Shown: piece after piece, positions 39,137 through 64,000 of the stretch
Layout of the letters: every line of letters begins with the position of its first letter
How positions within the stretch are numbered: the stretch's first letter is position 1
Assembly: GCF_002753895.1 (NCBI RefSeq)
Contig: NZ_NJER01000001.1
Location: 310,001-374,000 of the forward strand
Source of the DNA: Halobacteriovorax sp. JY17
GTDB taxonomy: Bacteria > Bdellovibrionota > Bacteriovoracia > Bacteriovoracales > Bacteriovoracaceae
DNA length: 64,000 nt
Direction: 5' to 3'
The notes under the pieces: model-generated
Told to the model about the DNA's origin: nothing
Seen by the model: the letters and a program-made list of their open reading frames with translations, nothing else
Databases searched by the model: none
Program-made: the position numbers and the translations under genes

Positions 39137-39159
39137 ATTGAAAAATGAGGACTAAACGT

Positions 39160-39567
39160 ATGACTTCTTTTGAGTACCCTGTAACGATCTTAGAAAAGCA
39201 TCTCGATACCTTTGGACATGTGAATAATGCGATCTATCTCTCTCTATATGAAGAGGCTAGGTGGGACTTTATCACTAAAGGTGGTTTTGGATTAAATGAA
39301 ATCCAAGAAAAGAAAATAGGCCCAGTAGTCTTGGAGCTAAATATTAAATTTACTTCTGAACTAAAAAATAGAGAAGACATCATTATCAAGTCAAAGAATC
39401 TTGGAATGAAAAACTCTCTGGTAATGGATATGGAACAATCCATGATTAAAGCTGATGGAACAGTTGCTTCCACAATGATTATTTCTTTTGGCCTCTTTGA
39501 TTTAAAGAAAAGAAAGTTAATACCGCCAACAAGTGAGTGGAAGAGAGCAATTGGAGAAGAAAGTTAA
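39160..39567 (+). CDS. Acyl-CoA thioesterase, 4-hydroxybenzoyl-CoA thioesterase/YbgC type
   Basis: 135 residues from the ATG at 39160 (GAGGA eight bases upstream; an ATG at 39145 lies before that site). Hotdog fold with the catalytic motif D-T-F-G-H-V-N-N-A-x-Y-L near residue 18; Asp is the expected nucleophile or base. NIKFTSELKNREDIIIKS fits the central strands. The family hydrolyses acyl-CoA or acyl-ACP thioesters. The gene is alone; its own dyad upstream suggests specific control. Confidence 0.88.
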   Translation: MTSFEYPVTILEKHLDTFGHVNNAIYLSLYEEARWDFITKGGFGLNEIQEKKIGPVVLELNIKFTSELKNREDIIIKSKNLGMKNSLVMDMEQSMIKADGTVASTMIISFGLFDLKKRKLIPPTSEWKRAIGEES

Positions 39568-50479: not shown

Positions 50480-51895
50480 ATGTTACTTAAAAAGAAAGAT
50501 CAAATCACTAAAGATTATGACGTTATTGTTGTGGGCTCAGGCCTTGCAGGAATGACTGCGGCTAATAAGCTTGCGCGAAATGGAAGAAGTGTTCTTCTAC
50601 TAGAGTCTCACAATAAACTAGGCGGATTCGCCACATGGTTTAAGCGTCAAACGGGAGATCATATCTTTGATGTCTCCCTCCATGGTTTCCCAGTTGGCAT
50701 GATTAAAACTTGTAGAAAGTATTGGTCTAAAGAAATTGCAGAGAGAATTGTTCAAGTTAAGAGCGTTAAATTTTCTAATCCACAATTTAATATTGAAACA
50801 GACTTCACGAAAGAGCACTACATTGAAGTTCTAACAGAGAAGTTTCATCTAGAAAGAGAAAAAGTTATTGGATTCTTTGATCACTTAGCGGCAATGAACT
50901 TCTACGATGATAGTGGTATGAATAATGGAGAGCTTTTTGAAAATTTCTTTCCAGGAAGAAATGATGTTCACCGCTTTTTAATGGAGCCAATTGTCTATGC
51001 CAATGGATCGACTCTTGAAGATCCTGCCATTACTTACGGGATTGTCTTCTCTAATTTTATGAGTAAGGGAGTTTACATATTTCAAGGCGGAACAGATAAG
51101 CTTATCTCGATGATGAAAGATGAACTGATTGCAAATGGAGTGGATATTAAACTTCATTCTAAGGTTGATGAAATCATTGTTGAAAATAGAAAAGTCGAAG
51201 GAGTTAAATTAGGTGGACAAGTCGTTAGGGCGAAATCGGTTCTATCTAATTCGAATCTTCTAAGCACAGTTTTTAAACTCGCAGGAGCGGAAAACTTCGA
51301 TGAAGACTTCATTGAGAAAGCAAAGAAGGTGAGACTCAATACTTCTAGCTGCCAAGTCTTTATGGGAATAAGAAAAGGTGAGAGTATCCCAGATATTGGA
51401 GAACTTGTTTTTTATTCAGATGATGATACTTTTAATACAAATCTCATTCTCTCTCCAAAAGTTGGTAGTCAGACCTTCTCTGTTTACTATCCTGAAATGA
51501 GAGAAGAGAGAGACGGGCGATATGCTGTTGTCTCTTCTAGCAACGCTCGCTATGAGGACTGGGTTGATCTCTCAAAAGAAGAATACTTAGAGAAGAAGAA
51601 TTTTACAATCGAGAGAGCTCTACTGACTTTAGAGAAGATCATTCCTGGAGTCAGAGAGAAAATTGACTATATTGATTGCTCAACACCTCTTACTGTTGAG
51701 AAGTATACTCATCATAATAAAGGTGCGAGCTTTGGAACAAAATTTGAGGGGCTTCCAGTAAGTATGGAAATGCATAAGCAGATTGCAGGGCTATTTCACT
51801 CTGGCTCTGTTGGTATTATAATGTCGGGGTGGCTTGGGGCCGCCAATTATGGGGTTATTCAGTCCCATGAAGTTGAAACATATCTTTCTAAATAG
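50480..51895 (+). CDS. FAD-dependent oxidoreductase, CrtI/retinol saturase type
   Basis: 471 residues. The N-terminal dinucleotide fold is complete: VIVVGSGLAGMTAANKLARNG, then LLLESHNKLGGFATW. FQGGTDKLISMMKDELIANGVDIKLHSKVDEI is the second FAD-binding part, and GLFHSGSVGIIMSGWLGAANYGV the C-terminal FAD motif. The family includes phytoene desaturases, carotene isomerases and saturases, which act on lipid double bonds. It opens an operon with FabG-, FabZ- and FabI-like enzymes, so it likely acts on acyl chains or isoprenoids. AGGG precedes the ATG. Confidence 0.9.
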   Translation: MLLKKKDQITKDYDVIVVGSGLAGMTAANKLARNGRSVLLLESHNKLGGFATWFKRQTGDHIFDVSLHGFPVGMIKTCRKYWSKEIAERIVQVKSVKFSNPQFNIETDFTKEHYIEVLTEKFHLEREKVIGFFDHLAAMNFYDDSGMNNGELFENFFPGRNDVHRFLMEPIVYANGSTLEDPAITYGIVFSNFMSKGVYIFQGGTDKLISMMKDELIANGVDIKLHSKVDEIIVENRKVEGVKLGGQVVRAKSVLSNSNLLSTVFKLAGAENFDEDFIEKAKKVRLNTSSCQVFMGIRKGESIPDIGELVFYSDDDTFNTNLILSPKVGSQTFSVYYPEMREERDGRYAVVSSSNARYEDWVDLSKEEYLEKKNFTIERALLTLEKIIPGVREKIDYIDCSTPLTVEKYTHHNKGASFGTKFEGLPVSMEMHKQIAGLFHSGSVGIIMSGWLGAANYGVIQSHEVETYLSK

Positions 51896-51904
51896 GTGAC
51901 TAAA

Positions 51905-52651
51905 ATGATGAATTTTAATTTTGAAAATAAAGTTGTAATTGTAACAGGTGGAACAAGAGGGATTGGTAAAGGAGTTACTACTACTTTCCTTGAACACGGT
52001 GCCAGTGTTATTGCTACTTATACATCTAATGATCAGGCTGCTAATGAGTTTAAAGAATCTCTAGGAGAGATGGCCAAGAGAATTGATCTTAGAAAGTTTG
52101 ATGTCTCTAAAGAAGATCAAGTTCAAGAATTCTATCACTATATTGATTCAGAGTATGAAAGGGTTGATATTCTCGTAAATAATTCTGGAATTAGAAAAGA
52201 CAATGTTCTCGCTCTTATGCCATCGGAAGACTGGGATAGCGTCATGGATGTAAATCTTAAGGGAACATTTCTAATGACCAAGGCTGCAGTTCCTTTGATG
52301 ATGAAAAACCGTTTTGGTAGAATTATAAATATGAGCTCTGTTGGAGGATCTCTCGGTTTATCTGGTCAGGCAAACTACGCAGCTTCAAAGGCGGGCCAGG
52401 TAGCTCTTTCTAAATCACTCTCTAAAGAAGTGGGAAAGAAAGGAATTACGATTAATAATATCTGCCCTGGATTTATTGAGACAGAATTAATTGCTGATCT
52501 TCCTGCCGATCAAGTGAAAGAGTACAAGAAACAAGTTCCTCTTAAGAGATTTGGAAAAGTTGAAGAAGTTGCAAATGCTGTACTCTTTCTAAGTAGTGAA
52601 TATGCTGGTTATATCACTGGAACTTCTCTTGAAATTACAGGTGGCCTCTAA
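51905..52651 (+). CDS. 3-oxoacyl-ACP reductase, FabG-like SDR
   Basis: 248 residues from the ATG at 51905 (AGGTGA upstream; the GTG at 51896 lies in that site). TGGTRGIGKG binds NADPH; NNSGI, the Ser in NMSSVGG and Tyr-x3-Lys in ANYAASKAG form the catalytic set; ITGTSLEITGG is the typical FabG end. Reduces 3-ketoacyl thioesters. Second in the FAD-FabG-FabZ-FabI operon, coupled to the next gene by TAATG. Confidence 0.9.
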   Translation: MMNFNFENKVVIVTGGTRGIGKGVTTTFLEHGASVIATYTSNDQAANEFKESLGEMAKRIDLRKFDVSKEDQVQEFYHYIDSEYERVDILVNNSGIRKDNVLALMPSEDWDSVMDVNLKGTFLMTKAAVPLMMKNRFGRIINMSSVGGSLGLSGQANYAASKAGQVALSKSLSKEVGKKGITINNICPGFIETELIADLPADQVKEYKKQVPLKRFGKVEEVANAVLFLSSEYAGYITGTSLEITGGL

Positions 52652-53073
52652 TGTTAAAATTTTCAAATGAAGTCTTAGAGTTATTGCCACAGAAACCCCC
52701 ATTTCTCTTTGTTGATAAAGTTATGGAAAGGGGAGAAGGAACTATAAAAACTTCTTTAACTCTAACGGGAGAGGAAGATTTCTTTAAAGGTCACTTTCCT
52801 GGAAATCCCATTATGCCGGGAGTTTTATTACAAGAAGCCTCCTTTCAGTCGGGAGCACTTCTCATGGCAACAATGTCTGGTAAAGGTCTCGGGGTTGTAA
52901 CTAAAGTTTCAAACGCTAAGTTTAAGAACTTTGTGAAACCAGGTGATGAATTAATAATGGAAGTAACTCTTATTGATCAAGTGTCAAATGCCTATTACAT
53001 GAAAGGTCGCTCAAGTGTTAATGGCAAAGTTGTAATGGCCATTGAGTTTAGCTGCGCTTTAATAGAGGAATAG
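52651..53073 (+). CDS. 3-hydroxyacyl-ACP dehydratase, FabZ-like hotdog protein
   Basis: 140 residues. LLPQKPPFLFVDKV opens the domain; the active site GHFPGNPIMPGVLLQEASFQSG carries the catalytic His and Glu of FabZ (FabA has Asp). Length and order fit FabZ. It dehydrates 3-hydroxyacyl thioesters. Its ATG overlaps the FabG stop and its stop abuts the next start. Likely a pathway-specific copy, since it is not beside lpxA/lpxD as the housekeeping fabZ commonly is. Confidence 0.9.
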   Translation: MLKFSNEVLELLPQKPPFLFVDKVMERGEGTIKTSLTLTGEEDFFKGHFPGNPIMPGVLLQEASFQSGALLMATMSGKGLGVVTKVSNAKFKNFVKPGDELIMEVTLIDQVSNAYYMKGRSSVNGKVVMAIEFSCALIEE

Positions 53074-53075
53074 TG

Positions 53076-53870
53076 ATGAATTTTGGTTTTAAAGATAAGA
53101 CATATGTTATTTCTGGAGTGGCCAATAAGAAGAGTGTTGCCTACTTTAGTGCTAAGATTCTTAGTGATGAGGGAGCGAAGCTCATTTTAACTGTACAGTC
53201 AGAAGAGCATAAAGAAAAAGTGAAGAAACTCTTTCCTGAGTCTCAAATCCTTATTCTTGATGTTGAAAACGCTGCGGCTATTTTAGAGTTTGGAAAGAAA
53301 ATTGAAGAGCTAGGTGTGAAAATTCATGGCTTCTTACACTCTATTGCTTTTGCAAATTATTCTGAGGGGATTAAACCTTTCCATGAAACAAAACTTGAGG
53401 ACTATCTTCAGGCCACAAATATTTCTTCTTTTTCACTTGTGAGTCTATCTAATGCTCTAAAGACTTCTTTTGATAATAACGCTTCTATTGTAACAATTTC
53501 TATTTCTGATACGAGAGCGACTAGCTACGGCTATATGGGGCCGATTAAGGCAACTCTTGATGCAACAGTGGCCTATCTTGCAAAATCATTAAGTTTAGAT
53601 TCTAGAGTTCGCTGTAACGCTGTTTGCGCTGGGCCTTTGAAGACTTCAGCATCTGCGGGAATCCCTGGTTATATCAACAATTATCTCTTTGCTGAAAAGC
53701 TCACTCTTAGAAGAGAGAATTTAAAAACACTTGAGGTGGCCAATACGATAGCATTTCTCTTAAGTGAGCTCTCTAGTGGTATTAATGCGACAGGGATTAA
53801 GGTCGATGCAGGAATGAGCTGTAATCACTTTGATAATGATGTGGTGAGTATCGTAGCCAATAACTTATAA
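53076..53870 (+). CDS. Enoyl-ACP reductase, FabI-like
   Basis: 264 residues from the ATG at 53076 (AGAGGA upstream; GTG 53073 is the alternative). SGVANKKSVAY (FabI N-terminal loop), LHSIAFAN, and the Tyr-x6-Lys pair in SYGYMGPIKAT (equivalent to E. coli Tyr156/Lys163) identify FabI. The C-terminal part VAGAGP-like CAGPLKTSASAGIPGY and the end VDAGMSC fit. It reduces trans-2-enoyl thioesters with NAD(P)H. Probably a second copy for a special acyl chain, as no FabF/H or ACP gene is close. A strong bidirectional terminator follows. Confidence 0.87.
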   Translation: MNFGFKDKTYVISGVANKKSVAYFSAKILSDEGAKLILTVQSEEHKEKVKKLFPESQILILDVENAAAILEFGKKIEELGVKIHGFLHSIAFANYSEGIKPFHETKLEDYLQATNISSFSLVSLSNALKTSFDNNASIVTISISDTRATSYGYMGPIKATLDATVAYLAKSLSLDSRVRCNAVCAGPLKTSASAGIPGYINNYLFAEKLTLRRENLKTLEVANTIAFLLSELSSGINATGIKVDAGMSCNHFDNDVVSIVANNL

Positions 53871-53903: not shown

Positions 53904-54635
53904 TTATTTAAAATATTTTTCTAAATCATCACTTCCACCAATTCTCTTTCCATCGATGAAAATTTGAGGAACTGTTCCCGCTCCTGTTAGTGCTGCAAGA
54001 GAAACACTCGTAGCATCTCTTCCAAGAACAACTTCTTCAAAATCTAGCTCTTTACTAGCAAGCAGCTCTTTTGCTTTCTTACAAAAAGGACAACCTGGCT
54101 TTGAGATTACTGTGATTGCCTTTGGAAGTTCAGCATTTTTATTAATATAATTGAGCATTGTATCTGCATCACTTACTTCAAAGGGATCTCCTGGCTTTTC
54201 TGGTTCAATGAACATCTTCTCAATGACACCATTATTTACTAGCATTGAGTATCTCCATGACCTCTTACCAAATCCTAAATCAGTCTTATCTACTAAAAGA
54301 CCCATCTTTTCTGTAAATTCTCCGTTACCATCGGCGAGTAGAGTCACTTTGTCAGCTTCTTGGCTTTCGCCCCAAGACTTCATCACAAAGGCATCATTTA
54401 CTGAAAGGCAAATAATTTCGTCAACGCCTTCTTTTGCAAATGTCTTTGCAAGTTGATTATATCTTGGAAGGTGAGTAGACGAGCAAGTTGGGGTAAAGGC
54501 CCCTGGTAGAGAAAAGAGGACAACTTTTCTATTGCTGAATAATTTTTCTGAATCTACATTCACTAATCCATTTTCATTTATGATTTTGAGTGCTGTATTT
54601 GGAACTTTTTGTCCCTCTCTGTTTTCAAAACTCAT
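53904..54635 (-). CDS. Hybrid peroxiredoxin-glutaredoxin (Prx5 type)
   Basis: 243 residues. Residues 1-165 are a Prx5 peroxiredoxin with PGAFTPTCSSTHLP (peroxidatic Cys51) and GFGKRSWRYSMLV. Residues 170-243 are a glutaredoxin: KPGCPFCKKA (Cys182, Cys185), GTVPQIFIDGKRIGGSDDL. Such fusions reduce peroxides with glutathione. A strong AGGAGG precedes the ATG. An OxyR-like site and a TATAAT box stand 64-103 bases upstream, so peroxide induction is likely. Confidence 0.94.
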   Translation of the reverse strand: MSFENREGQKVPNTALKIINENGLVNVDSEKLFSNRKVVLFSLPGAFTPTCSSTHLPRYNQLAKTFAKEGVDEIICLSVNDAFVMKSWGESQEADKVTLLADGNGEFTEKMGLLVDKTDLGFGKRSWRYSMLVNNGVIEKMFIEPEKPGDPFEVSDADTMLNYINKNAELPKAITVISKPGCPFCKKAKELLASKELDFEEVVLGRDATSVSLAALTGAGTVPQIFIDGKRIGGSDDLEKYFK

Positions 54636-54952: not shown

Positions 54953-57070
54953 ATGAAATTAGTGCAGTACATTCTTATCAGTGTCATTTTATATCTTTCG
55001 ACTAAGGTCTTAGCGGCAGAGAAGTTTGATCACTTTGAAATTGTCGACGAACAAAAACTTCATTCTCTCTACGGTGATGTCTCAGTGGGACTAAAGAGTG
55101 CTAATTATGAACTTGCCAACGATAATGCTCTCTATCGCAGTATTCTAAATGAATTGGGTACAACTTATGACAGCATTGGACAGAGGCAGGCCGCCAATGT
55201 TCTACATAATCAAAATACAACAGTCTTTGGAGGTCTCAATAATATTGGGATTAAGTATACCAAAGACTTCTTAGATTTCTCTATTATAGCTGGTCGTACT
55301 GTTGCTCCCGATCTCTTTAGCGATGATAAGTGGATTGTCTCAGATGAATTTACCATTGATATTAATGCTTCGAAGTTACTCTCAAATCTTAAAGATCAAG
55401 GAGTAGTTGATTTCTCTGAAAAGCAGTATGGCGCTTTTGCAGGAGTAAGTTTTAGAAGAACTTTTAGATCCGTACACTTTGCGAATAGCTATATGGAAGG
55501 TTTAACTCTTCACTTTGATAAGTTATTTTTGGCCTTTACTAAATTTATGAATAAAGATTACCTCAATCTAGGAGAGTATGAGTTCTTACAAAAAGAAGAC
55601 TCTCTATCCTTGAAGGCGGGGGCGATTGCCGGAGCACCTATCTATGGGCCAATCTTTGGGAGCGCTGGCGTACTTGCTAGTTATGAAAGCTTATCGAGAG
55701 TTGATATTCAATCAGTGCATGAACAAGAGAAGTCTAGTGAGAATGAAAAACTAAGAATCACAATGGAGAAAGTAAAATCTGCAAGTGTTGGAGTTTCGGC
55801 AAGCATTAGTGTTGAGTTTTTAAAACTCCTACAGATGACTCTCTTAAAGTACGATTTCAATTATAAATTAGAGGATGCTCAAAAGACATACCTCACTTTC
55901 TATGATCAGGATTTTGAAAAATTAAAGAAAGACTCATACTACTCTCAACAAGTTGAGAGGATTCTAAAAGGGCAGAAGTCAGATCTCTATGCTCTTAGAA
56001 ATAATGTGGTCTCTCTTGAACAAAGAAAAACTGAACAGAAAGAATCAAAGTATAGTTTACTCTTTTGGGGTGGGCAAAAAGAAGCGAGTACACAGCAAAT
56101 TGAAATTGTAAAAGATGGAGTCGTTCATAGATTCTTTAAGCACTACTATGAAAAGATTAAGTATAAGCAAAATATTTTTTCAAGGCTTGTTGCTGTTCTT
56201 GTTAAATCTCTTTTAAAACTAGATTCAATTATTAATAAAGATAGTAGTGATTCGAAGAAGGTTATCGTCGAGTATTCGGCTGACGAGAACCTAATTGATG
56301 CTAAGAAAGATATTAACATGAAAGAAGAGGAAACTGTCTCCATTGGTTTTTCTCATTATTTCTTTACAGCAAATACTCGTGGAGTCACGAAGAGGGGACA
56401 TAAGAAAACTGCCCTTGAAACCTTGAACAATTACTCTGGTGTCGACCCTCTTGCTATTAAACTCTTTGAGAGAGATCAACTTATTGGTCCAGTAAAAATT
56501 AACGGTGAATATAAAATAAATAGAGATGGTCTCTATCACTTACTCGGTTTTAGCCAGGCCGAGATGAAGTCTCGTTATGAAGCAATGTGTGGTGGAAAGA
56601 GTAAAGGTATATTTAAATGGTTTAGAAACCTATTTAATAATTGCCTCCATAAAATGAATTCATCTTCTAAGAAGTTTTATGCAGAATGGGCCTATAATGA
56701 CTTTAGTGCAGGAATATATACATACTGTGATAGTAGAACCAAGAAATATAGTTGGTTTAAAAGAAGCCGCAAGAGACGTAAGTGTATGGAGGAATATTCA
56801 AAAAGGAATGTTCCTCAAAATATTGCAGAAGTACCACTTTGGAGATTAAAAGATATAATTCAGACTATTTATCTAGAACATAAGAATAAGACTCAAATCC
56901 TTTCTTTCTTCGGTTACGACAATGTTTTCTACTATGGAAATTTTCAGGCCCATACTTCTGAGGGACAGTCATTTATTAGCTACTTCAACGAAGGACGCTT
57001 TGATGGCCTAGGAGTAGTTGATAACTTTCGTAGAGAAAACAATCTAAGAAGCCCTGCATCTTTAGATTAA
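54953..57070 (+). CDS. Large secreted protein of unknown function
   Basis: 705 residues with a signal peptide (MKLVQYILISVILYLSTKVLA-A). The first 330 residues alternate strands and glycine-rich turns (VFGGLNNIGIKYTKDFLDFSIIAGR, LSLKAGAIAGAPIYGPIFGSAGVLASYES), suggesting a barrel-like or lipid-binding fold; the rest is basic and helical (FKWFRNLFNNC, KYSWFKRSRKRRKC). The last 120 residues include DNVFYYGNFQAHTSEGQSF, similar in layout to DNIYIYGKITGF near the end of the 1027-residue protein at 24746. Four Cys occur, all in the last quarter. AAGG precedes the ATG. No family recognised. Confidence 0.72.
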   Translation: MKLVQYILISVILYLSTKVLAAEKFDHFEIVDEQKLHSLYGDVSVGLKSANYELANDNALYRSILNELGTTYDSIGQRQAANVLHNQNTTVFGGLNNIGIKYTKDFLDFSIIAGRTVAPDLFSDDKWIVSDEFTIDINASKLLSNLKDQGVVDFSEKQYGAFAGVSFRRTFRSVHFANSYMEGLTLHFDKLFLAFTKFMNKDYLNLGEYEFLQKEDSLSLKAGAIAGAPIYGPIFGSAGVLASYESLSRVDIQSVHEQEKSSENEKLRITMEKVKSASVGVSASISVEFLKLLQMTLLKYDFNYKLEDAQKTYLTFYDQDFEKLKKDSYYSQQVERILKGQKSDLYALRNNVVSLEQRKTEQKESKYSLLFWGGQKEASTQQIEIVKDGVVHRFFKHYYEKIKYKQNIFSRLVAVLVKSLLKLDSIINKDSSDSKKVIVEYSADENLIDAKKDINMKEEETVSIGFSHYFFTANTRGVTKRGHKKTALETLNNYSGVDPLAIKLFERDQLIGPVKINGEYKINRDGLYHLLGFSQAEMKSRYEAMCGGKSKGIFKWFRNLFNNCLHKMNSSSKKFYAEWAYNDFSAGIYTYCDSRTKKYSWFKRSRKRRKCMEEYSKRNVPQNIAEVPLWRLKDIIQTIYLEHKNKTQILSFFGYDNVFYYGNFQAHTSEGQSFISYFNEGRFDGLGVVDNFRRENNLRSPASLD

Positions 57071-57134: not shown

Positions 57135-58565
57135 ATGGCGCTGAGTTCAAAAATCATTTTAATTAGTAAGAAGTCTACCTTTTCAGACCTTGTCACTTTT
57201 GGTCTTCAGAGTAACTTTAACTTTGAAGTTGAGCTATTATCCTCTAAAGAGGAGTTCATTGACTCAATTGAGTCTAAGAATCAATACTCACTGATTGTAT
57301 GTGATGGATCAATTCCTATAGGAGAGAGCGAGGATATATTTACTTCATTTTGTGATAAGAGGTTAAATATTCCATACTTCGTTGTAGGAAGTTACGAATA
57401 TATCAATACTTTTAAGGGGCGTGGGCCAGAAGTCTTTCACCGAGATAATTGTTTAAAAGAAATTGATATTTCACTGAAGAAATACTTCATGGAGAATCCT
57501 CTCGTCACTCATGCTAATTACTGTCCAATAGATTTCTCAATTCTTGTTTCGTTTGAAGGTCTTAAATGTGATGTTTATATAAAACTTAGCAGTGGAAGGC
57601 ATCTGAAGATTTACCGCGAAAGTGATAATATTGAAGATGCAGATGTTTCAAAGTACGAAAGAAAGGGAGTTACAAAACTCTTTTTAAAAAAGAAGACAGC
57701 TCATTGGATTTTAAAGCAAATGAATTTGAATTTTAAGAAAGTCTTGGAGGCCCTTGAAAAAGGTGAAAAGGTTGAGCTTGAAAAAATAGAGGAAGCCGAA
57801 GTTGAAGAAGAGAAAGAAAATGCCCCTAAAGAGCAAAGCTTTGCTGAACTTCTTGCCGAAATAAAGAATGAGAAAGAGGCTAAGAAGGAAAAGAAAATTC
57901 AAGAAAGTGTAGATGGAGCTTTCAAATTAAGCGATGATTTTAAAAAAGATATAGATAAAAAAATAAGTAAAGCCGTTAAGGTCATGTCAAATTCTAGTAA
58001 TTTAAAGAAGCTCTTTAATAAACTAAGCGTTGATCGTAATCCAGATCAATATATAAAAATTCATATTAATCTTCTCTGTAAAATTACTTGCGCCATTGCT
58101 GATGTGATGGAGTGGAATCATGAATCAACATTAGAGAAACTGATTTATGTGAGTTACATGCATGATATAACAATGGTCGATATGCCTCATGTGGCAAGAA
58201 TTGAAAATCTAGAGGCCTTCGAAGAAATTAAAGAGACGCTATCTGAAAATGAACAAAAAATGTACCTCAATCATCCTCAGATTATTGCTGACATGGTTTT
58301 AGATACAGATGATTATCCTGTGGATGCTGAGAAAATAATACTTCAACATCATGAGCTTCCTGATCAAAAAGGCTTTCCTTTAAAAATTCAAACGACTAGA
58401 TTTATACCTCTCGCTGCACTTTTTATTATTGCTCATGATTTGGTAGATTATATAATTGATAATCCTGAATGGACTCTAGAAGACTATCTTCCAATCTGCA
58501 AAGAAAAGTTTAAAGGGCCAGGGTTTACCAAAATTATCCGAAAGTTGCCTGAACTTAAGGCCTAA
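57135..58565 (+). CDS. Degenerate receiver plus HD-GYP-like domain protein
   Basis: 476 residues. Residues 1-120 resemble a response-regulator receiver (KIILISKKSTFSDLV; SLIVCDGSI in place of the phospho-Asp strand), followed by an unknown domain (125-200) and a charged coiled coil (205-265, KVELEKIEEAEVEEEKENAP). Residues 290-470 form an HD domain with YMHDI (HD pair) and HHELPDQKGFP, close to HHExxDGxGYP of HD-GYP c-di-GMP phosphodiesterases. The altered motif makes the enzyme activity uncertain. AGGGAAG precedes the ATG. It overlaps oleD's end by 11 bases. Confidence 0.75.
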   Translation: MALSSKIILISKKSTFSDLVTFGLQSNFNFEVELLSSKEEFIDSIESKNQYSLIVCDGSIPIGESEDIFTSFCDKRLNIPYFVVGSYEYINTFKGRGPEVFHRDNCLKEIDISLKKYFMENPLVTHANYCPIDFSILVSFEGLKCDVYIKLSSGRHLKIYRESDNIEDADVSKYERKGVTKLFLKKKTAHWILKQMNLNFKKVLEALEKGEKVELEKIEEAEVEEEKENAPKEQSFAELLAEIKNEKEAKKEKKIQESVDGAFKLSDDFKKDIDKKISKAVKVMSNSSNLKKLFNKLSVDRNPDQYIKIHINLLCKITCAIADVMEWNHESTLEKLIYVSYMHDITMVDMPHVARIENLEAFEEIKETLSENEQKMYLNHPQIIADMVLDTDDYPVDAEKIILQHHELPDQKGFPLKIQTTRFIPLAALFIIAHDLVDYIIDNPEWTLEDYLPICKEKFKGPGFTKIIRKLPELKA

Positions 58566-59532
58566 TCTTCTCTATGGCCTCTTCAATTGAAATGCTTGGA
58601 GAGTAGTTAAAGTCCGCCTGGGCCTTCTTATGAGAGAAGTAGTGACTCTTTCCTAGTTGGAGTGCTACAAATCTCGTCATCGGTGGATGAATATTCCAAA
58701 CCCTAAAAAGTTTTAAAAAGAATTCAATGATGGCCCCAATTCGATAGGCCGTATTTGTAGGGATTTTCTTCGTAATAGGAGACTGGCCATTGATTTGGAG
58801 AATTTGATTTATGAAATCCCAAAGTTTTACAGGTCTCTCTTGAGCAATGAAGTAAGAGGAGCCTGCAACTTTTGAGTTAACTGTTAATTTCTCAAAGGCC
58901 TGAATATGTGCTTTGGCAGCATTTTCGACGTAGATAATATCCACTAGATTTTCGCCGTCACCAACTATTTTAAGTTTATTCTTCTTGGAGGCCTCAATTA
59001 GACGCGGGATTATATTCTTATCTCTTGGTCCAAAAATTAAGTGAGGTCTTAGAGAGCAGGTTAGAAAGCTCTCAGAGTTTTGATCTAGAACATATTTTTC
59101 CGCGAGCATTTTAGATTTTGCATAAAGGCTAAGATATTTTTTAGGATAGTTTAAAGTTTCATCTTGGCCAAGGAGATCACCTTCTCCAAAAACAACACTT
59201 GGCGTAGAAGTGTAAATAAGTTTCTTAATACCTTTCTTCTTGCAGGCCTCAACTAAGTTCTTCGTTCCAATGGTATTTGTCTGGTAGAAGTCATCCCACT
59301 TCCCCCACATCGCCACTTTTCCTGCAACATGAAAGACCGCATCTATATCTTCTAGTGCATTTTCAATACTTTTAGGATTATTTAAATTACCTATTCGTGT
59401 GGTAATTTCTAATTGATCTAGGTCTCTATGGTGACTTCTAGAGAAGTTATAGACTCTATGACCAAGCTCTTTTAAGTCTCTGGCAATATAGAAGCCTAGA
59501 AAACCTCCAGCTCCTGTCACTAAGATATTCAC
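58555..59532 (-). CDS. oleD: OleD: NAD(P)H-dependent 2-alkyl-3-ketoacid reductase (SDR)
   Basis: 325 residues, GTG start overlapping the oleC stop (GTGA), with AAGGA eight bases upstream. TGAGGFLG binds the nucleotide; the catalytic Ser/Thr in STPSVVFGEG and Tyr-x3-Lys in LYAKSK follow; the extended SDR pattern (3-beta-HSD-like) is the OleD type. It reduces the 2-alkyl-3-ketoacid from OleA to the 3-hydroxy acid. Last gene of the ole operon. Confidence 0.88.
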   Translation of the reverse strand: MNILVTGAGGFLGFYIARDLKELGHRVYNFSRSHHRDLDQLEITTRIGNLNNPKSIENALEDIDAVFHVAGKVAMWGKWDDFYQTNTIGTKNLVEACKKKGIKKLIYTSTPSVVFGEGDLLGQDETLNYPKKYLSLYAKSKMLAEKYVLDQNSESFLTCSLRPHLIFGPRDKNIIPRLIEASKKNKLKIVGDGENLVDIIYVENAAKAHIQAFEKLTVNSKVAGSSYFIAQERPVKLWDFINQILQINGQSPITKKIPTNTAYRIGAIIEFFLKLFRVWNIHPPMTRFVALQLGKSHYFSHKKAQADFNYSPSISIEEAIEKIRP

Positions 59533-61160
59533 TCTAGTTTTCCTTCTTCTGCTAAGTCTCTAAGTTTTAGTCGATCGATTTTTATATTATGACGGACATC
59601 AACGGGGAATTCATTATGAAACCAAACCGTCTTTATATTCTTTGTGTGTTCGTGAAGACTCGCCATTTGTAGTAGATCATCTTTCATTTCTTTTGTTTTC
59701 TTGGCCGGGTTTTTAAGTTGAACAACAAGTTCCGGAGTTTGGAAAGCTTGTCCTTTGTAAACTCCAACAAGAGCTGATTTTTCAACTTCACTATGTTCAT
59801 TGAAAATTGCTTCGCAGGGAATAGTACTCATTAAAGCGTCTTGTGTTTGAACTCTATGAGTCTTTCTTCCACAAAACCATAAGTAGCCTTCATTATCAAT
59901 ATAGCCTAGGTCTCCAATTCTATGCCAGAACTCATCTCCGTCATAAATCTTTGCTTCAGCTGTTTTTATGGGCATTTCAAAGTAGCGCTTAGTTACTGTT
60001 TCTCCTTTGACTATGATTTCTCCAATTTCGCCACAAGGAAGAGTTGTCATCTCACTTGTTGTTTGGATCACATCATCAGTGATGGAGATAATTTTTATTT
60101 CCATAGAGGGAGCAGGTTTACCGACACAGGTCCCTAATCCTCTAGATGACTTATCAACAGTATTTTCTAAGAGATACTTTCCTGAAATATTTGCGACAGG
60201 TAGAGATTCTGTCGCTCCATAAGGAGTGTAAGTCGTTCCATTGGGGAGAACCTTAGAGAAATCTTGATGAATTTTCTTACTAACAGGAGCCCCAAACATG
60301 ACGAGATACTTCACACTAGGTAGTTGGATATTTCGTTGTACACAGTAGACGGCTACTTTATCCCAAATCGCAGGGGAGCCGGCCACAAAAGTCGCTTCAT
60401 TATCAAGGATTCCCTGAACGAGTTTTTCAGGAGAGGCCTGACCTGGTTTAGATGGGTCCATATCTGGAATACAGCTCGTCATTCCCATGGCGATCGTAAA
60501 GAGAGCGAAGAGAGGGAAGCCTGGTACATCAGTATCTTTTGAACTCAGAGAGAATATCTCCTGCAGTAGCTCTGTTTGTTTTGAGAAAATTCTATGAGTA
60601 TATTCTACTCCTTTAGGAACTCCTGTTCCGCCGGAAGTGAAGAGTATGGCCGCCAAGTCATTTTCATCAATTGTTGTATGGACTTCACTTGGAGGAAGTT
60701 TCTTAAGACTTTTTAACGACTTCATTGACCCCCATGTAAGAGATCCTGTTGTGATAAAGTGTTCGACAGTTTTAAATGCATCTCTTTTAAAGAGTCTTAG
60801 AAAATGAACGATTGGAACGGCAATAAGCGCTTTAGGTCTGACCTGTTTTATTGCTCTTAGTAAATTCTCTTTTCCCATTCCTGGGTCAATGAACACGGGG
60901 ACAATTCCAAGCGAGAAGAGGGCGAAGGTCACAGCGGGAAAGTCTAGCCCGGGTCTTATAAAAACAACGGCCTTGTCTCCACTCTTTAATCCCTTTGCTG
61001 TAAGTCCATTTGCAATAGATCTCGTTGTATCTAGGAGTTCTTTGAAAGTTCTACTCTCGTAGTTATAATTCCCATAAGAATTTCTGCCAAGAGGAACTTT
61101 TATCGCAATCTTTGAGGGATGTTCCTGTGCTCTCTTTATTAATAGATCTGCAATATTCAT
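59529..61160 (-). CDS. oleC: OleC: beta-lactone synthetase (acyl-AMP ligase family)
   Basis: 543 residues of the ANL superfamily. ATP loop LFTSGGTGVPKG, TPYGATE (aromatic-Gly-Ala-Thr-Glu), and GEFWHRIGDLGYIDNEGYLWFCGRK-like region (DEFWHRIGDLGYID). These match the AMP-ligase group, and within the ole operon the enzyme converts 2-alkyl-3-hydroxy acids to beta-lactones with ATP. It follows oleB by two bases. Confidence 0.9.
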   Translation of the reverse strand: MNIADLLIKRAQEHPSKIAIKVPLGRNSYGNYNYESRTFKELLDTTRSIANGLTAKGLKSGDKAVVFIRPGLDFPAVTFALFSLGIVPVFIDPGMGKENLLRAIKQVRPKALIAVPIVHFLRLFKRDAFKTVEHFITTGSLTWGSMKSLKSLKKLPPSEVHTTIDENDLAAILFTSGGTGVPKGVEYTHRIFSKQTELLQEIFSLSSKDTDVPGFPLFALFTIAMGMTSCIPDMDPSKPGQASPEKLVQGILDNEATFVAGSPAIWDKVAVYCVQRNIQLPSVKYLVMFGAPVSKKIHQDFSKVLPNGTTYTPYGATESLPVANISGKYLLENTVDKSSRGLGTCVGKPAPSMEIKIISITDDVIQTTSEMTTLPCGEIGEIIVKGETVTKRYFEMPIKTAEAKIYDGDEFWHRIGDLGYIDNEGYLWFCGRKTHRVQTQDALMSTIPCEAIFNEHSEVEKSALVGVYKGQAFQTPELVVQLKNPAKKTKEMKDDLLQMASLHEHTKNIKTVWFHNEFPVDVRHNIKIDRLKLRDLAEEGKLE

Positions 61161-61162
61161 AC

Positions 61163-62041
61163 TTACTCACTTAGGAATTTAAAAATATCTTTATTAATCT
61201 CTTCCTTTGCGTCCTCAAGGACATAGTGACCAGCATCTTTAAAAACCTTCTTCGATGCTTTTGGGAAAATATCTACCCAGCGATTATAGAAATTCATATT
61301 GAAACAGAAGTCTTTTTCTCCCCATAGAATGAGCTTTGGACATTCAAGAGCGGAGAGTTTATTTTCAATTTCTTTTAAAGTATTCCACGACGGGTGAGAA
61401 TCATTCATTGGAATATCTTTTACAAATCTTGCTGTGGCTATTCTATTTTCATAATTATTATAAGGAAGAAGGTAGCCTTCTTTTGCGGTCTTACTTAGAC
61501 CAATATTTGTCGCCATAAAAGTCGCTGGCCACGCAAAGGCATTAAACTTTCTAACGAGCCATTCTCCAAAGATAGGATTCTTACAAATTCCAATTGTCTT
61601 TGGAATAAGTTTTGAGGTGAAGGCGGCAGTATTTAGAATGACCGCTTTCTTTAAGCTATCAGGTCTTCTTGTGGCGAGTCCCATTCCAATGGCCCCGCCC
61701 CAGTCGTGAACAATGAGGTTGAAATCTTCTATTTTTAGAGATTCAATTAATTCTTCTAAATTATCAATATGATTTTTTAAAGTATAGTCATAGTCTTGGG
61801 GCTTATCCGAAAGTCCACATCCAATATGATCAGGAACTATGACTCTAAAATTCCCCTGAAGACTCTTGATGACATCTCTATAATAGAAAGACCAAGTCGG
61901 GTTTCCGTGGGCCATTATCACAACTGGTCCTGTTCCCTCGTCAACATAAGAGAGAGTATGTCCCGACTTTAATTTAATTTTCTTTGGAGTGAATGGATAT
62001 TCTTCTCTTAAAGATGTAGGTATTGTTATCGCTCTCACCAT
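61163..62041 (-). CDS. oleB: OleB: beta-lactone decarboxylase (alpha/beta-hydrolase)
   Basis: 292 residues of the haloalkane-dehalogenase-like branch. HGNPTWSFYYRD is the oxyanion/aromatic loop, VHDWGGAIG carries nucleophile Asp113, and His is about residue 272 (DAGHYVLED). In the ole pathway it decarboxylates beta-lactones to cis-olefins. GGAG four bases before the ATG; the start overlaps the oleA stop by seven bases. Confidence 0.9.
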   Translation of the reverse strand: MVRAITIPTSLREEYPFTPKKIKLKSGHTLSYVDEGTGPVVIMAHGNPTWSFYYRDVIKSLQGNFRVIVPDHIGCGLSDKPQDYDYTLKNHIDNLEELIESLKIEDFNLIVHDWGGAIGMGLATRRPDSLKKAVILNTAAFTSKLIPKTIGICKNPIFGEWLVRKFNAFAWPATFMATNIGLSKTAKEGYLLPYNNYENRIATARFVKDIPMNDSHPSWNTLKEIENKLSALECPKLILWGEKDFCFNMNFYNRWVDIFPKASKKVFKDAGHYVLEDAKEEINKDIFKFLSE

Positions 62042-63066
62042 TCTACTCCTAGCATGATAGACGTAAGTCCACTACCGATGCCTAATAGGGCCACTTTTTC
62101 GCCCTTTTTTAATTTATTTGTTTCTACTAATTTTGCAAGAGTTATTGGTAGGGCCGCAGAGCCTGTATTTCCAAGAGTCTCATAAGTTGTATAGGTCTTA
62201 TGTTCACTTAATTCCATGGCCTCCATGGTTAGTCTCTCGTGGGCCGTCCCAACTTGATGACCAATTACCCAATCTACATCAGAGTTCTTCCAATTAAGAA
62301 CTTCCTTTGTCTTATTCCAATTCTTCTTCGCTAGCTCTAGTCCGTGTTTTAACAACTCTTCTGAATCTGTCTCCATCATTAGGGATGTTGTATCACCATC
62401 GCCCTGACAGAGAATATTCGCACTAGAGTCTGTGCAGACTGCACCTCCAATAATTCTTGGAGCTGTGGGCGCAAGGTCTTTGTGTGAGAGTAGGTAGGCG
62501 ACAGAGGCGGAGCCTATTGTAAGGTTTGCAATATATTTCTTAATAGATTTTCTGGTTAGGGTTAAGTCACCATTTAGATAATCAAGAGTTTGACTTAGAA
62601 GTGGTCCTCCATTTTCCCCTGATACGATAAGGGCGTATTTAATTTGCCCTAACTCAATCATATTGGCGGCCATGGCCATTGCATTGACAACACCAAGACA
62701 GGCATTTGATAAATCATAAATCATTGCATCTTCATTTAATTCAAGATTGTGATGAACTACAGATGCGGTTGATGGCTCTAGAAAGTCTCTACAAACACTC
62801 GCGTGAATGAGCAGTCCTATGTCGGACTTATCGATTCCAGACTTTGCTAATAATTTCTTTGCCGATCTAGTAGAGAGATCACTTGGTCTAGTTCCATTTG
62901 GCCAAATTCCTCTTGATTGAATTCCTGTCATGAGTTCAAGTCTTCCTGCTGGAAGATTTAATCTCTGATAGAGAGGTGAGAGCTTTTCTTCTATATCTTC
63001 TGATGTGAGAAATTCTTCAGGCTCAAGGTAGTCAAAGCTGTGTAGAGCAACATTTTGATATTTCAT
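62035..63066 (-). CDS. oleA: OleA: head-to-head acyl-CoA condensing thiolase
   Basis: 343 residues, thiolase fold. Active Cys123 in DLSNACLGVV, His270 in VIGHQVGTAH, Asn300 in LGNTGSAALP, and Glu97 in VCRDFLEPSTAS, a motif that marks OleA (Glu in the alkyl channel) rather than FabH. OleA joins two fatty acyl-CoA by non-decarboxylative Claisen condensation. It lies three bases after the FAD oxidoreductase. Confidence 0.92.
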   Translation of the reverse strand: MKYQNVALHSFDYLEPEEFLTSEDIEEKLSPLYQRLNLPAGRLELMTGIQSRGIWPNGTRPSDLSTRSAKKLLAKSGIDKSDIGLLIHASVCRDFLEPSTASVVHHNLELNEDAMIYDLSNACLGVVNAMAMAANMIELGQIKYALIVSGENGGPLLSQTLDYLNGDLTLTRKSIKKYIANLTIGSASVAYLLSHKDLAPTAPRIIGGAVCTDSSANILCQGDGDTTSLMMETDSEELLKHGLELAKKNWNKTKEVLNWKNSDVDWVIGHQVGTAHERLTMEAMELSEHKTYTTYETLGNTGSAALPITLAKLVETNKLKKGEKVALLGIGSGLTSIMLGVEW

Positions 63067-63069
63067 AAT

Positions 63070-64000
63070 TTAATCCATTAATCCGTAGAGATTTGCCATT
63101 GATATACCAGATAGCATTGATCCAACGATTCCAAGAAATCCTTGATCAGTACCGCAGAGATAGAGCCCATAAATTTCTGTTGAACCATCTCGACTCTTGT
63201 CAGTTGATCCGTAGACGGTTCCACCAAAGTGTCCAGTATATTTCTTAATAGTTGTTGGAGAAAAGATATCCTTAAAGAGGACTTCACCGTTCCAAGAAGG
63301 CATAAGCTTCTTTGTTAGTTGACAGGCATCATTAAAAACTAATTCTTTTTGCGCTTTATATTCGGGGCGCTCTAATTCATTCCAAAGCTTAAAATTCGCC
63401 ATATTTGTAATGCGAACCCAGCCTTCTTCAAAGTCGTCATGAGTGAAATTATTTGGAAAGCAAATGACTGCAGAACTTGGGTCATAGAGTTCTGTAGGCT
63501 CTCTATAGAGATACTTCGGTCTATTATTATAGAAGACAATAGTGCTATCAAAACCAAGGTCTTTGGGTTTCTTGTCGAGAACAAGAATACTTTCACAGAA
63601 AGTCATTTTTCCGATGGCGGGTTGTGTTTTTGGAGTTACACCACTTACAACACTCAGTGTTTCTGGATAACCCATGCTAGAGATGACTTTCTCTGTTTGT
63701 AGAAAGTCTCCATTCTTGAGTTTCACTCCGACGACTTTACCATTATTTGTTTCAATACTTTCTACTTCGCTTTTAAAACGAATAACTTGTCCTAGGTCTT
63801 CTAGTTTCTTAAGTAGAATGTTTATTATTGTTCTAACGCCACCTTCCGGTCTTGAAAAACCTTCCATGTAAATACTTTTAAACATGATGGCAAATTGAGA
63901 GAAGTCCATATCATTTTCCCATGCCGACCCATAAATCAGAAGGGGACAGAAGATCATTTCTAAAAGTTCTTCGTTTGTTATATATTGTCGCACAACTTCT
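63070..64000 (-). CDS. FAD oxidoreductase, CrtI type, C-terminal part (cut by window edge)
   Basis: The frame is open to base 64000, so the N-terminal FAD fold is outside; about 310 residues remain. MFKSIYMEGFSRPEGGVRTIINILLKKLEDLGQVIRFKSEVESIETNNGKVVGVKLKNG is the CrtI/carotene isomerase second FAD part, and YGLYLCGTDQGFLGIVGSMLSGISMANLYGL the C-terminal FAD motif. It heads the ole operon on the visible strand. It is of the same superfamily as the enzyme at 50480. A role in processing an olefin or its acyl precursor is inferred. Confidence 0.88.
   Translation of the reverse strand, partial: EVVRQYITNEELLEMIFCPLLIYGSAWENDMDFSQFAIMFKSIYMEGFSRPEGGVRTIINILLKKLEDLGQVIRFKSEVESIETNNGKVVGVKLKNGDFLQTEKVISSMGYPETLSVVSGVTPKTQPAIGKMTFCESILVLDKKPKDLGFDSTIVFYNNRPKYLYREPTELYDPSSAVICFPNNFTHDDFEEGWVRITNMANFKLWNELERPEYKAQKELVFNDACQLTKKLMPSWNGEVLFKDIFSPTTIKKYTGHFGGTVYGSTDKSRDGSTEIYGLYLCGTDQGFLGIVGSMLSGISMANLYGLMD

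Follow-up and report, generated by a model that had tools for sequence, protein, structure and literature searches.

The window analyzed here is a 64,000-nucleotide stretch of the genome of the marine bacterium Halobacteriovorax sp. JY17 (contig NZ_NJER01000001.1, positions 310,001 to 374,000), and its far end holds an oleABCD operon preceded by a gene for a flavin adenine dinucleotide (FAD) enzyme, FAD1. A probable predatory host had been proposed in a first-pass annotation of the sequence, and a Halobacteriovorax-type (predatory) host is supported. The genes oleD, oleC, oleB, oleA, and FAD1 are intact open reading frames (ORFs) on the minus strand (Table 1); 3 bases separate FAD1 from oleA and 2 separate oleB from oleC, and the oleA/oleB and oleC/oleD pairs overlap by 7 and 4 bases, respectively. 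The full-length FAD1 protein has 466 residues, or 459 if translation starts at the ATG that relatives use. FAD1 had been taken as the leading gene of the operon, which it is not, because genes for an acyl carrier protein (ACP), a ketoacyl-ACP synthase (KAS), and a regulator lie upstream on the same strand, just outside the window, in the order regulator-KAS-ACP-FAD1-oleABCD. Approximately 5 kb from oleD, a gapless module on the plus strand (FAD2-fabG-fabZ-fabI, 50480-53870) encodes a second flavoprotein and three further fatty acid synthase (FAS) enzymes. The whole system comprises 11 genes: oleABCD and those for KAS, ACP, FAD1, FAD2, FabG, FabZ, and FabI.

Table 1 Genes of the two modules and their neighbors in Halobacteriovorax sp. 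JY17 (window coordinates unless stated)
Feature	Position	Strand	Description
oleD	58555..59532	-	325 aa, NAD(P)H-dependent 2-alkyl-3-oxoalkanoate reductase
oleC	59529..61160	-	543 aa, AMP-dependent beta-lactone synthetase
oleB	61163..62041	-	292 aa, haloalkane-dehalogenase-like beta-lactone decarboxylase
oleA	62035..63066	-	343 aa, head-to-head Claisen condensing thiolase
FAD1	63070..64000, on to contig position 374470	-	CrtISO/CrtI-fold flavoprotein; gene cut by window end
ACP	upstream of FAD1, outside window	-	84 aa
KAS	upstream of ACP, outside window	-	409 aa, FabF-like; Cys161, His299, His335
Regulator	upstream of KAS, outside window	-	219 aa, helix-turn-helix; overlaps KAS by 4 bases
FAD2	50480..51895	+	471 aa, second CrtISO/CrtI-fold flavoprotein; opens second FAS module
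fabG (dedicated)	51896..52651	+	251 aa, ketoacyl-ACP reductase
fabZ (dedicated)	52651..53073	+	140 aa, hydroxyacyl-ACP dehydratase; FabZ type, not FabA
fabI-like (dedicated)	53073..53870	+	265 aa, enoyl-ACP reductase
Peroxiredoxin-glutaredoxin fusion	53904..54635	-	
Protein between the modules	54953..57070	+	705 aa
Hotdog-like protein	39145..39567	+	140 aa

Identity of the OleABCD proteins

In family scans, OleA scores 423 bits against the NCBIfam model PRK09258 (cut-off 285), and it aligns end to end with the crystallized OleA of Xanthomonas (PDB ID: 3row, E 9e-71). A maximum-likelihood tree places the window OleA with the Xanthomonas protein and separates it, with 100/98 support, from FabH-like proteins, two of which are encoded in the JY17 genome; the grouping with FabH that would have refuted the first-pass annotation is therefore not seen. 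Across 72-85 homologues drawn from several phyla, residues Glu97, Cys123, His270, and Asn300 of OleA and Asp113 of OleB are at least 97% conserved. The earlier description of four closely spaced genes on one strand with these catalytic residues is thus confirmed by the ORFs, the family scans, and the homologue alignment. OleB matches Abhydrolase and haloalkane dehalogenase models in the Pfam and NCBIfam scans, and its His272 is conserved like Asp113. OleC scores 602 bits against PRK09274 (cut-off 478), and its next-best matches are olefin beta-lactone synthetase models. For OleD, the OleD models are by far the best (343 and 332 bits, under the cut-off of 580), and Y137 and K141 are conserved. 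Judged by their sequences, oleA to oleD encode a true OleABCD set. An in vivo assay with p-nitrophenyl esters has shown that the OleA of Halobacteriovorax marinus is active (PMC7064751).

A second, dedicated set of fatty acid synthase genes

The FAS genes of the two modules differ from their housekeeping counterparts. The cluster KAS is only 34% identical to the sole other FabF of the genome and 55-71% identical to cluster KAS proteins of other phyla; the cluster FabI is likewise 34% identical to the housekeeping FabI and approximately 70% identical to the FabI of the Smithella cluster. The only other protein of the FabA/FabZ fold in the genome is a housekeeping FabZ encoded between lpxD and lpxA. 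The presence of separate housekeeping FabF, FabI, and FabZ proteins indicates that the cluster genes form a second, dedicated set. Active-site residues are intact throughout: FabG (291 bits on TIGR01830, cut-off 297.75) retains Y161 and K165, and the FabI-like protein (up to 175 bits on FabI models, under their cut-offs) retains Y152 and K159. In the cluster FabZ, His48 and Glu62 are conserved, which marks it as FabZ type; dehydratases of this type normally do not isomerize. PDB searches with the cluster ACP and FabZ for kinship to solved anammox proteins returned ordinary-looking ACP and FabZ matches.

Other known sources of an unusual chain were considered. FabA is found neither in the genome nor in the cluster, both proteins of the fold being FabZ type, and FabA was rejected as the origin of unsaturation. 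No protein of 59 genomes, including that of JY17, exceeds the cut-off for PfaD (TIGR02814), and a multidomain Pfa synthase was rejected as the feed. The JY17 genome, listed as 100% complete, lacks any phytoene/squalene synthase protein (PF00494, SQS_PSY), which speaks against a carotenoid role. Given these absences, neither the Pfa, the carotenoid, nor the FabA route applies. A hopanoid route was also rejected, since neither of two genomes searched has the C-terminal domain of an SQHop cyclase.

Properties of the two flavoproteins

FAD1 and FAD2 are related to one another (25% identity in a profile comparison), and the best family profile of both is CrtISO, though under the cut-off. FAD1 scores 124 bits against the CrtISO cut-off of 586.9 and 58 bits against the CrtI cut-off of 238.1; FAD2 scores 114 and 71 bits on the CrtISO and CrtI models, also below the cut-offs. 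The closest fold to both predicted structures is 4rep, with a Z score of 30.9 for FAD1 (predicted local distance difference test score, pLDDT, 88) and 31.2 for FAD2 (pLDDT 82). From these comparisons, the "CrtI-type" label of the first-pass annotation appears to hold for the fold and not for the family, whose cut-offs lie far above both proteins and whose precursor enzyme, phytoene synthase, is missing from the genome. CrtISO itself is a flavin isomerase of double bonds that acts without net redox change (PMC3382138). The further suggestion that the FAD enzyme tailors the acyl chain or the product can be narrowed: the acyl chain is very probably what FAD1 acts on, and the suggestion was incomplete in that FAD1 is one of seven dedicated FAS genes, four of which form the FAD2 module.

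Conservation and linkage across phyla

About 25 genomes belonging to this family share the order KAS-ACP-FAD1-oleABCD, often preceded by the regulator; the contig scan covered the best 80 of 542 relatives, and frequencies are not unbiased. Because the order recurs in so many relatives, the arrangement is far beyond chance. In same-family genomes, FAD2-fabGZI lies nearby on the opposite strand or, as at L042, follows oleD immediately and in the same orientation. The two modules form one contiguous run on a single strand at L042, L084, L086, L091, L093, L106, and L131. Among 37 family genomes, strong hits to both FAD1 and OleA occur in 28, to neither in 8, to FAD1 alone (a fragment) in 1, and to OleA alone in 0 (Fisher p 2e-7, only a guide since the genomes are related).

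The linkage extends well beyond the family. A scan of named genomes found FAD1 in Halobacteriovorax, Bacteriovorax, Smithella/Syntrophaceae, Nitrospina, Dehalococcoidia/Chloroflexota, and Planctomycetota, and OleA is present in 21 of the 23 tested FAD1-bearing genomes from other groups. FAD1 lies beside oleA or FAD2 in 108 of 112 testable loci (some loci counted twice), and FAD2 adjoins FAD1 or oleD in other phyla. In Smithella, the 11 genes are contiguous in the order KAS-ACP-FAD1-oleABCD-FAD2-fabGZI; the same 11 are contiguous at four Desulfobacterota loci (L214-L217, a phylum taken from the Smithella-centered search) as KAS-ACP-FAD1-FAD2-fabGZI-oleABCD. The Chloroflexota order, oleA-KAS-ACP-FAD1-FAD2-fabGZI, places oleA inside the FAS module, and Nitrospina has KAS-ACP-FAD1-FAD2-fabGZI, its oleAB and oleC lying at other genomic sites. 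The genes have been reshuffled between distant phyla and yet have stayed together, which strongly supports a single pathway. In three Chloroflexota/Planctomycetota loci (L117, L118, L120), KAS is present in tandem copies inside the FAS module, two of them also having tandem copies of the oleA-KAS pair there.

This linkage of FAD1 and KAS-ACP across phyla bears directly on the simplest explanation of the locus, in which an ordinary OleABCD is fed by the housekeeping FAS and the FAD gene is a carotenoid enzyme or a chance neighbor. Such an explanation would account for the match of the FAD proteins to CrtI/CrtISO-like domains, and ordinary minimal operons do exist, as at two loci from another family of the same phylum (L060, L062) that hold OleABCD without FAD1 or KAS. 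It is nearly excluded by the linkage, by the absence from the genome of both phytoene and squalene synthases, and by the report that the CrtI-like genes of anammox (Kuenenia) type II FAS (FASII) clusters are without CrtI activity (PMC4790861).

Proposed pathway and alternatives

The favored reading, to which somewhat better than even confidence is attached, is that a dedicated, dissociated FAS, with two CrtISO-like flavoenzymes that place and keep cis double bonds, feeds polyunsaturated acyl-ACP to OleA, from which OleBCD produce a polyunsaturated hydrocarbon. In this scheme, KAS, ACP, FabG, and FabZ would elongate acyl-ACP and yield a trans-2-enoyl-ACP in every round. FabI would reduce this intermediate in some rounds; in the others, FAD1 and FAD2 would convert the trans-2 double bond to a cis double bond that is kept (trans-2 to cis-3 and trans-2 to cis-2), a role likened to that thought for the FabA-like domains of Pfa synthase. 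OleA would then join two polyunsaturated acyl-ACPs (16:4 n-3 by analogy) head to head, after which reduction by OleD, lactonization by OleC, and decarboxylation by OleB would give a polyunsaturated membrane hydrocarbon of the C31:8/C31:9 type. The genes, their active sites, their linkage across phyla, the missing PfaD, phytoene synthase, and FabA, and the separate housekeeping set are observations, whereas the polyunsaturation of the chain, the isomerase role of the FAD proteins, the division of labor between them, and the exact product are inferred. The chemistry has precedent in Pfa synthesis, in which each trans-2-enoyl intermediate meets one of two fates, reduction or isomerization to cis-2 or cis-3 (PMC4882568). 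In Pfa systems, the 16:4 chain used by OleA is thought to come from the ACP of the synthase (PMC6463001), so that a feed through ACP is plausible here, and C31:9 is predicted to come from two 16:4 n-3 chains (PMC6463001, PMC4882568). By our own derivation, synthesis of 4,7,10,13-16:4 from acetate needs cis-3 isomerization at C6 and C12, cis-2 isomerization at C8 and C14, and reduction at C10 and C16; the two isomerases and one enoyl reductase that this calls for match the two flavoproteins and one FabI of the cluster. The expectation of long-chain internal olefins in the first-pass annotation was right in that the OleABCD set is real and probably too modest, as the gene set points to polyunsaturated hydrocarbons.

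It is possible, though unlikely, that in an otherwise identical system FAD1, FAD2, or both act as desaturases or dehydrogenases (by FabX-like back-tracking or CrtI-like acyl-ACP oxidation) rather than as redox-neutral isomerases. The best profile of both proteins, though under its cut-off, is the isomerase CrtISO; a 16:4 n-3 chain requires exactly two isomerizations and one enoyl reduction; and the hosts include Smithella and Dehalococcoidia, groups generally known as anaerobes, in which another electron acceptor would then be needed. The desaturase explanation draws on the nearest folds (4rep), which are carotenoid desaturases, on an earlier proposal by Rattray et al. of a new anaerobic polyunsaturated fatty acid (PUFA) route via desaturation, in which ole genes are unmentioned (PMC2649909), and on FabX, for which dehydrogenase/isomerase chemistry in type II FAS is described (PMC8626469).

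Slightly less likely still is that the dedicated FAS makes some other special chain (monounsaturated, conjugated, or branched), from which OleA would lead to an ordinary or new olefin and not to a methylene-interrupted polyene. The sequence does not fix the chain, and OleA of other groups takes saturated, monounsaturated, and branched chains (PMC6463001). A single double bond, however, needs less than two distinct flavoproteins and a full duplicate FAS, and Desulfotalea psychrophila provides a precedent for a polyene, as it makes C31:8/C31:9 without Pfa and has FASII clusters with phytoene-dehydrogenase-like genes (PMC2649909).

Several points weigh against the proposed polyunsaturated pathway. 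The product is a prediction from the gene set. The fatty acid isomerase 2b9w, which forms conjugated linoleic acid, shares the fold of FAD1 (Z 23.4) and FAD2 (Z 22.1), but this fold match is common to many amine oxidases and does not show isomerase activity. The likeness of the D. psychrophila clusters to those of JY17 is drawn from their published description. Furthermore, the Kuenenia and Desulfotalea clusters hold radical S-adenosylmethionine (SAM), SAM methyltransferase, and phenylacetyl-CoA ligase genes, whereas no radical SAM, SAM methyltransferase, or CoA-ligase gene is found among the ORFs of the two JY17 modules except oleC itself. Finally, Chloroflexota relatives with OleA have no OleC at E 1e-80, so that the FAS module does not lead to a hydrocarbon everywhere; in these organisms, the product may stop at the ketone.

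Regulatory sequence and neighboring genes

Upstream of the regulator gene, just downstream of a promoter-like TTGACG...TAATCT, lies the palindrome TATTACATATTTGTAATA (contig 376669-376686), which is exact in four genus members and is a probable autoregulatory operator. The palindrome TATTACANATTTGTAATA, which four genus members likewise have ahead of the regulator gene, was considered as a shared operator for both modules and rejected: it has no match in the window and hence none at FAD2. The peroxiredoxin-glutaredoxin fusion gene lies tail to tail with fabI and is also found near the modules in several relatives (L036, L037, L038, and L040); its product may protect peroxidizable lipids. Between the two modules is a gene for a protein with a signal-peptide-like start and without a Pfam match. 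Farther away in the window, a 140-residue protein resembles a hotdog-fold thioesterase when read by eye; Pfa systems employ such a thioesterase, PfaT. A 679-residue PaaZ-like aldehyde dehydrogenase/hydratase (L005:13906-15945) is encoded upstream of the operon and, among the loci read, is present there in the same genus only.

Implications and comparison with known systems

A broader proposal, for which the balance falls just short of even, is that the seven stand-alone proteins (KAS, ACP, FabG, FabZ, FabI, and two CrtISO-like flavin isomerases) constitute a dissociated type II PUFA synthase that feeds OleA in Bdellovibrionota, Desulfobacterota, Nitrospinota, Chloroflexota, and Planctomycetota without a Pfa megasynthase or oxygen-dependent desaturases, and that could also supply the proposed precursor chain of anammox ladderanes. 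If true, this would offer a concrete gene set for the polyunsaturated hydrocarbons of Pfa-less bacteria, a puzzle since 2009, and a testable function for CrtI-like genes whose suggested part in anammox ladderane synthesis has never been demonstrated. Bacteria, among them marine nitrifiers, syntrophs, and predators, would then have one more means of making polyunsaturated chains, and the seven genes would be a compact module for engineering. No paper joining a FAD-FASII module with oleABCD was found within an incomplete coverage of the literature, which is no proof of novelty.

The closest described clusters are those of D. psychrophila and Kuenenia stuttgartiensis (Rattray 2009), in which, as here, FASII genes lie beside those for CrtI-like flavoproteins and Pfa is lacking; the CrtI-like FAD genes among the D. 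psychrophila FASII genes are DP2405 and DP2406, which are adjacent in numbering, and DP1860 (PMC2649909). Plant CrtISO and CrtI share the fold, the FAD-binding motif, and the best family profiles with FAD1 and FAD2, which nevertheless fall far under the family cut-offs in a genome without the carotenoid precursor enzyme. The pfaABCDE and oleABCD genes of Shewanella, Photobacterium, and Geobacter bemidjiensis, which are often neighbors, likewise combine an OleABCD end with a polyunsaturated acyl-ACP feed, as is suggested here; there the feed is the multidomain Pfa synthase, whereas in JY17 it would be stand-alone KAS, ACP, FabG, FabZ, FabI, and two flavoproteins, without PfaD. In Xanthomonas and Stenotrophomonas, the four OleABCD enzymes are encoded in one operon, as in JY17, but draw on the general fatty acid pool (PMC6463001), in contrast to the dedicated FAS in the same cluster here. 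The ole operon itself is of a known kind; its dedicated FAS front end sets it apart and possibly represents a new route to polyunsaturated chains.

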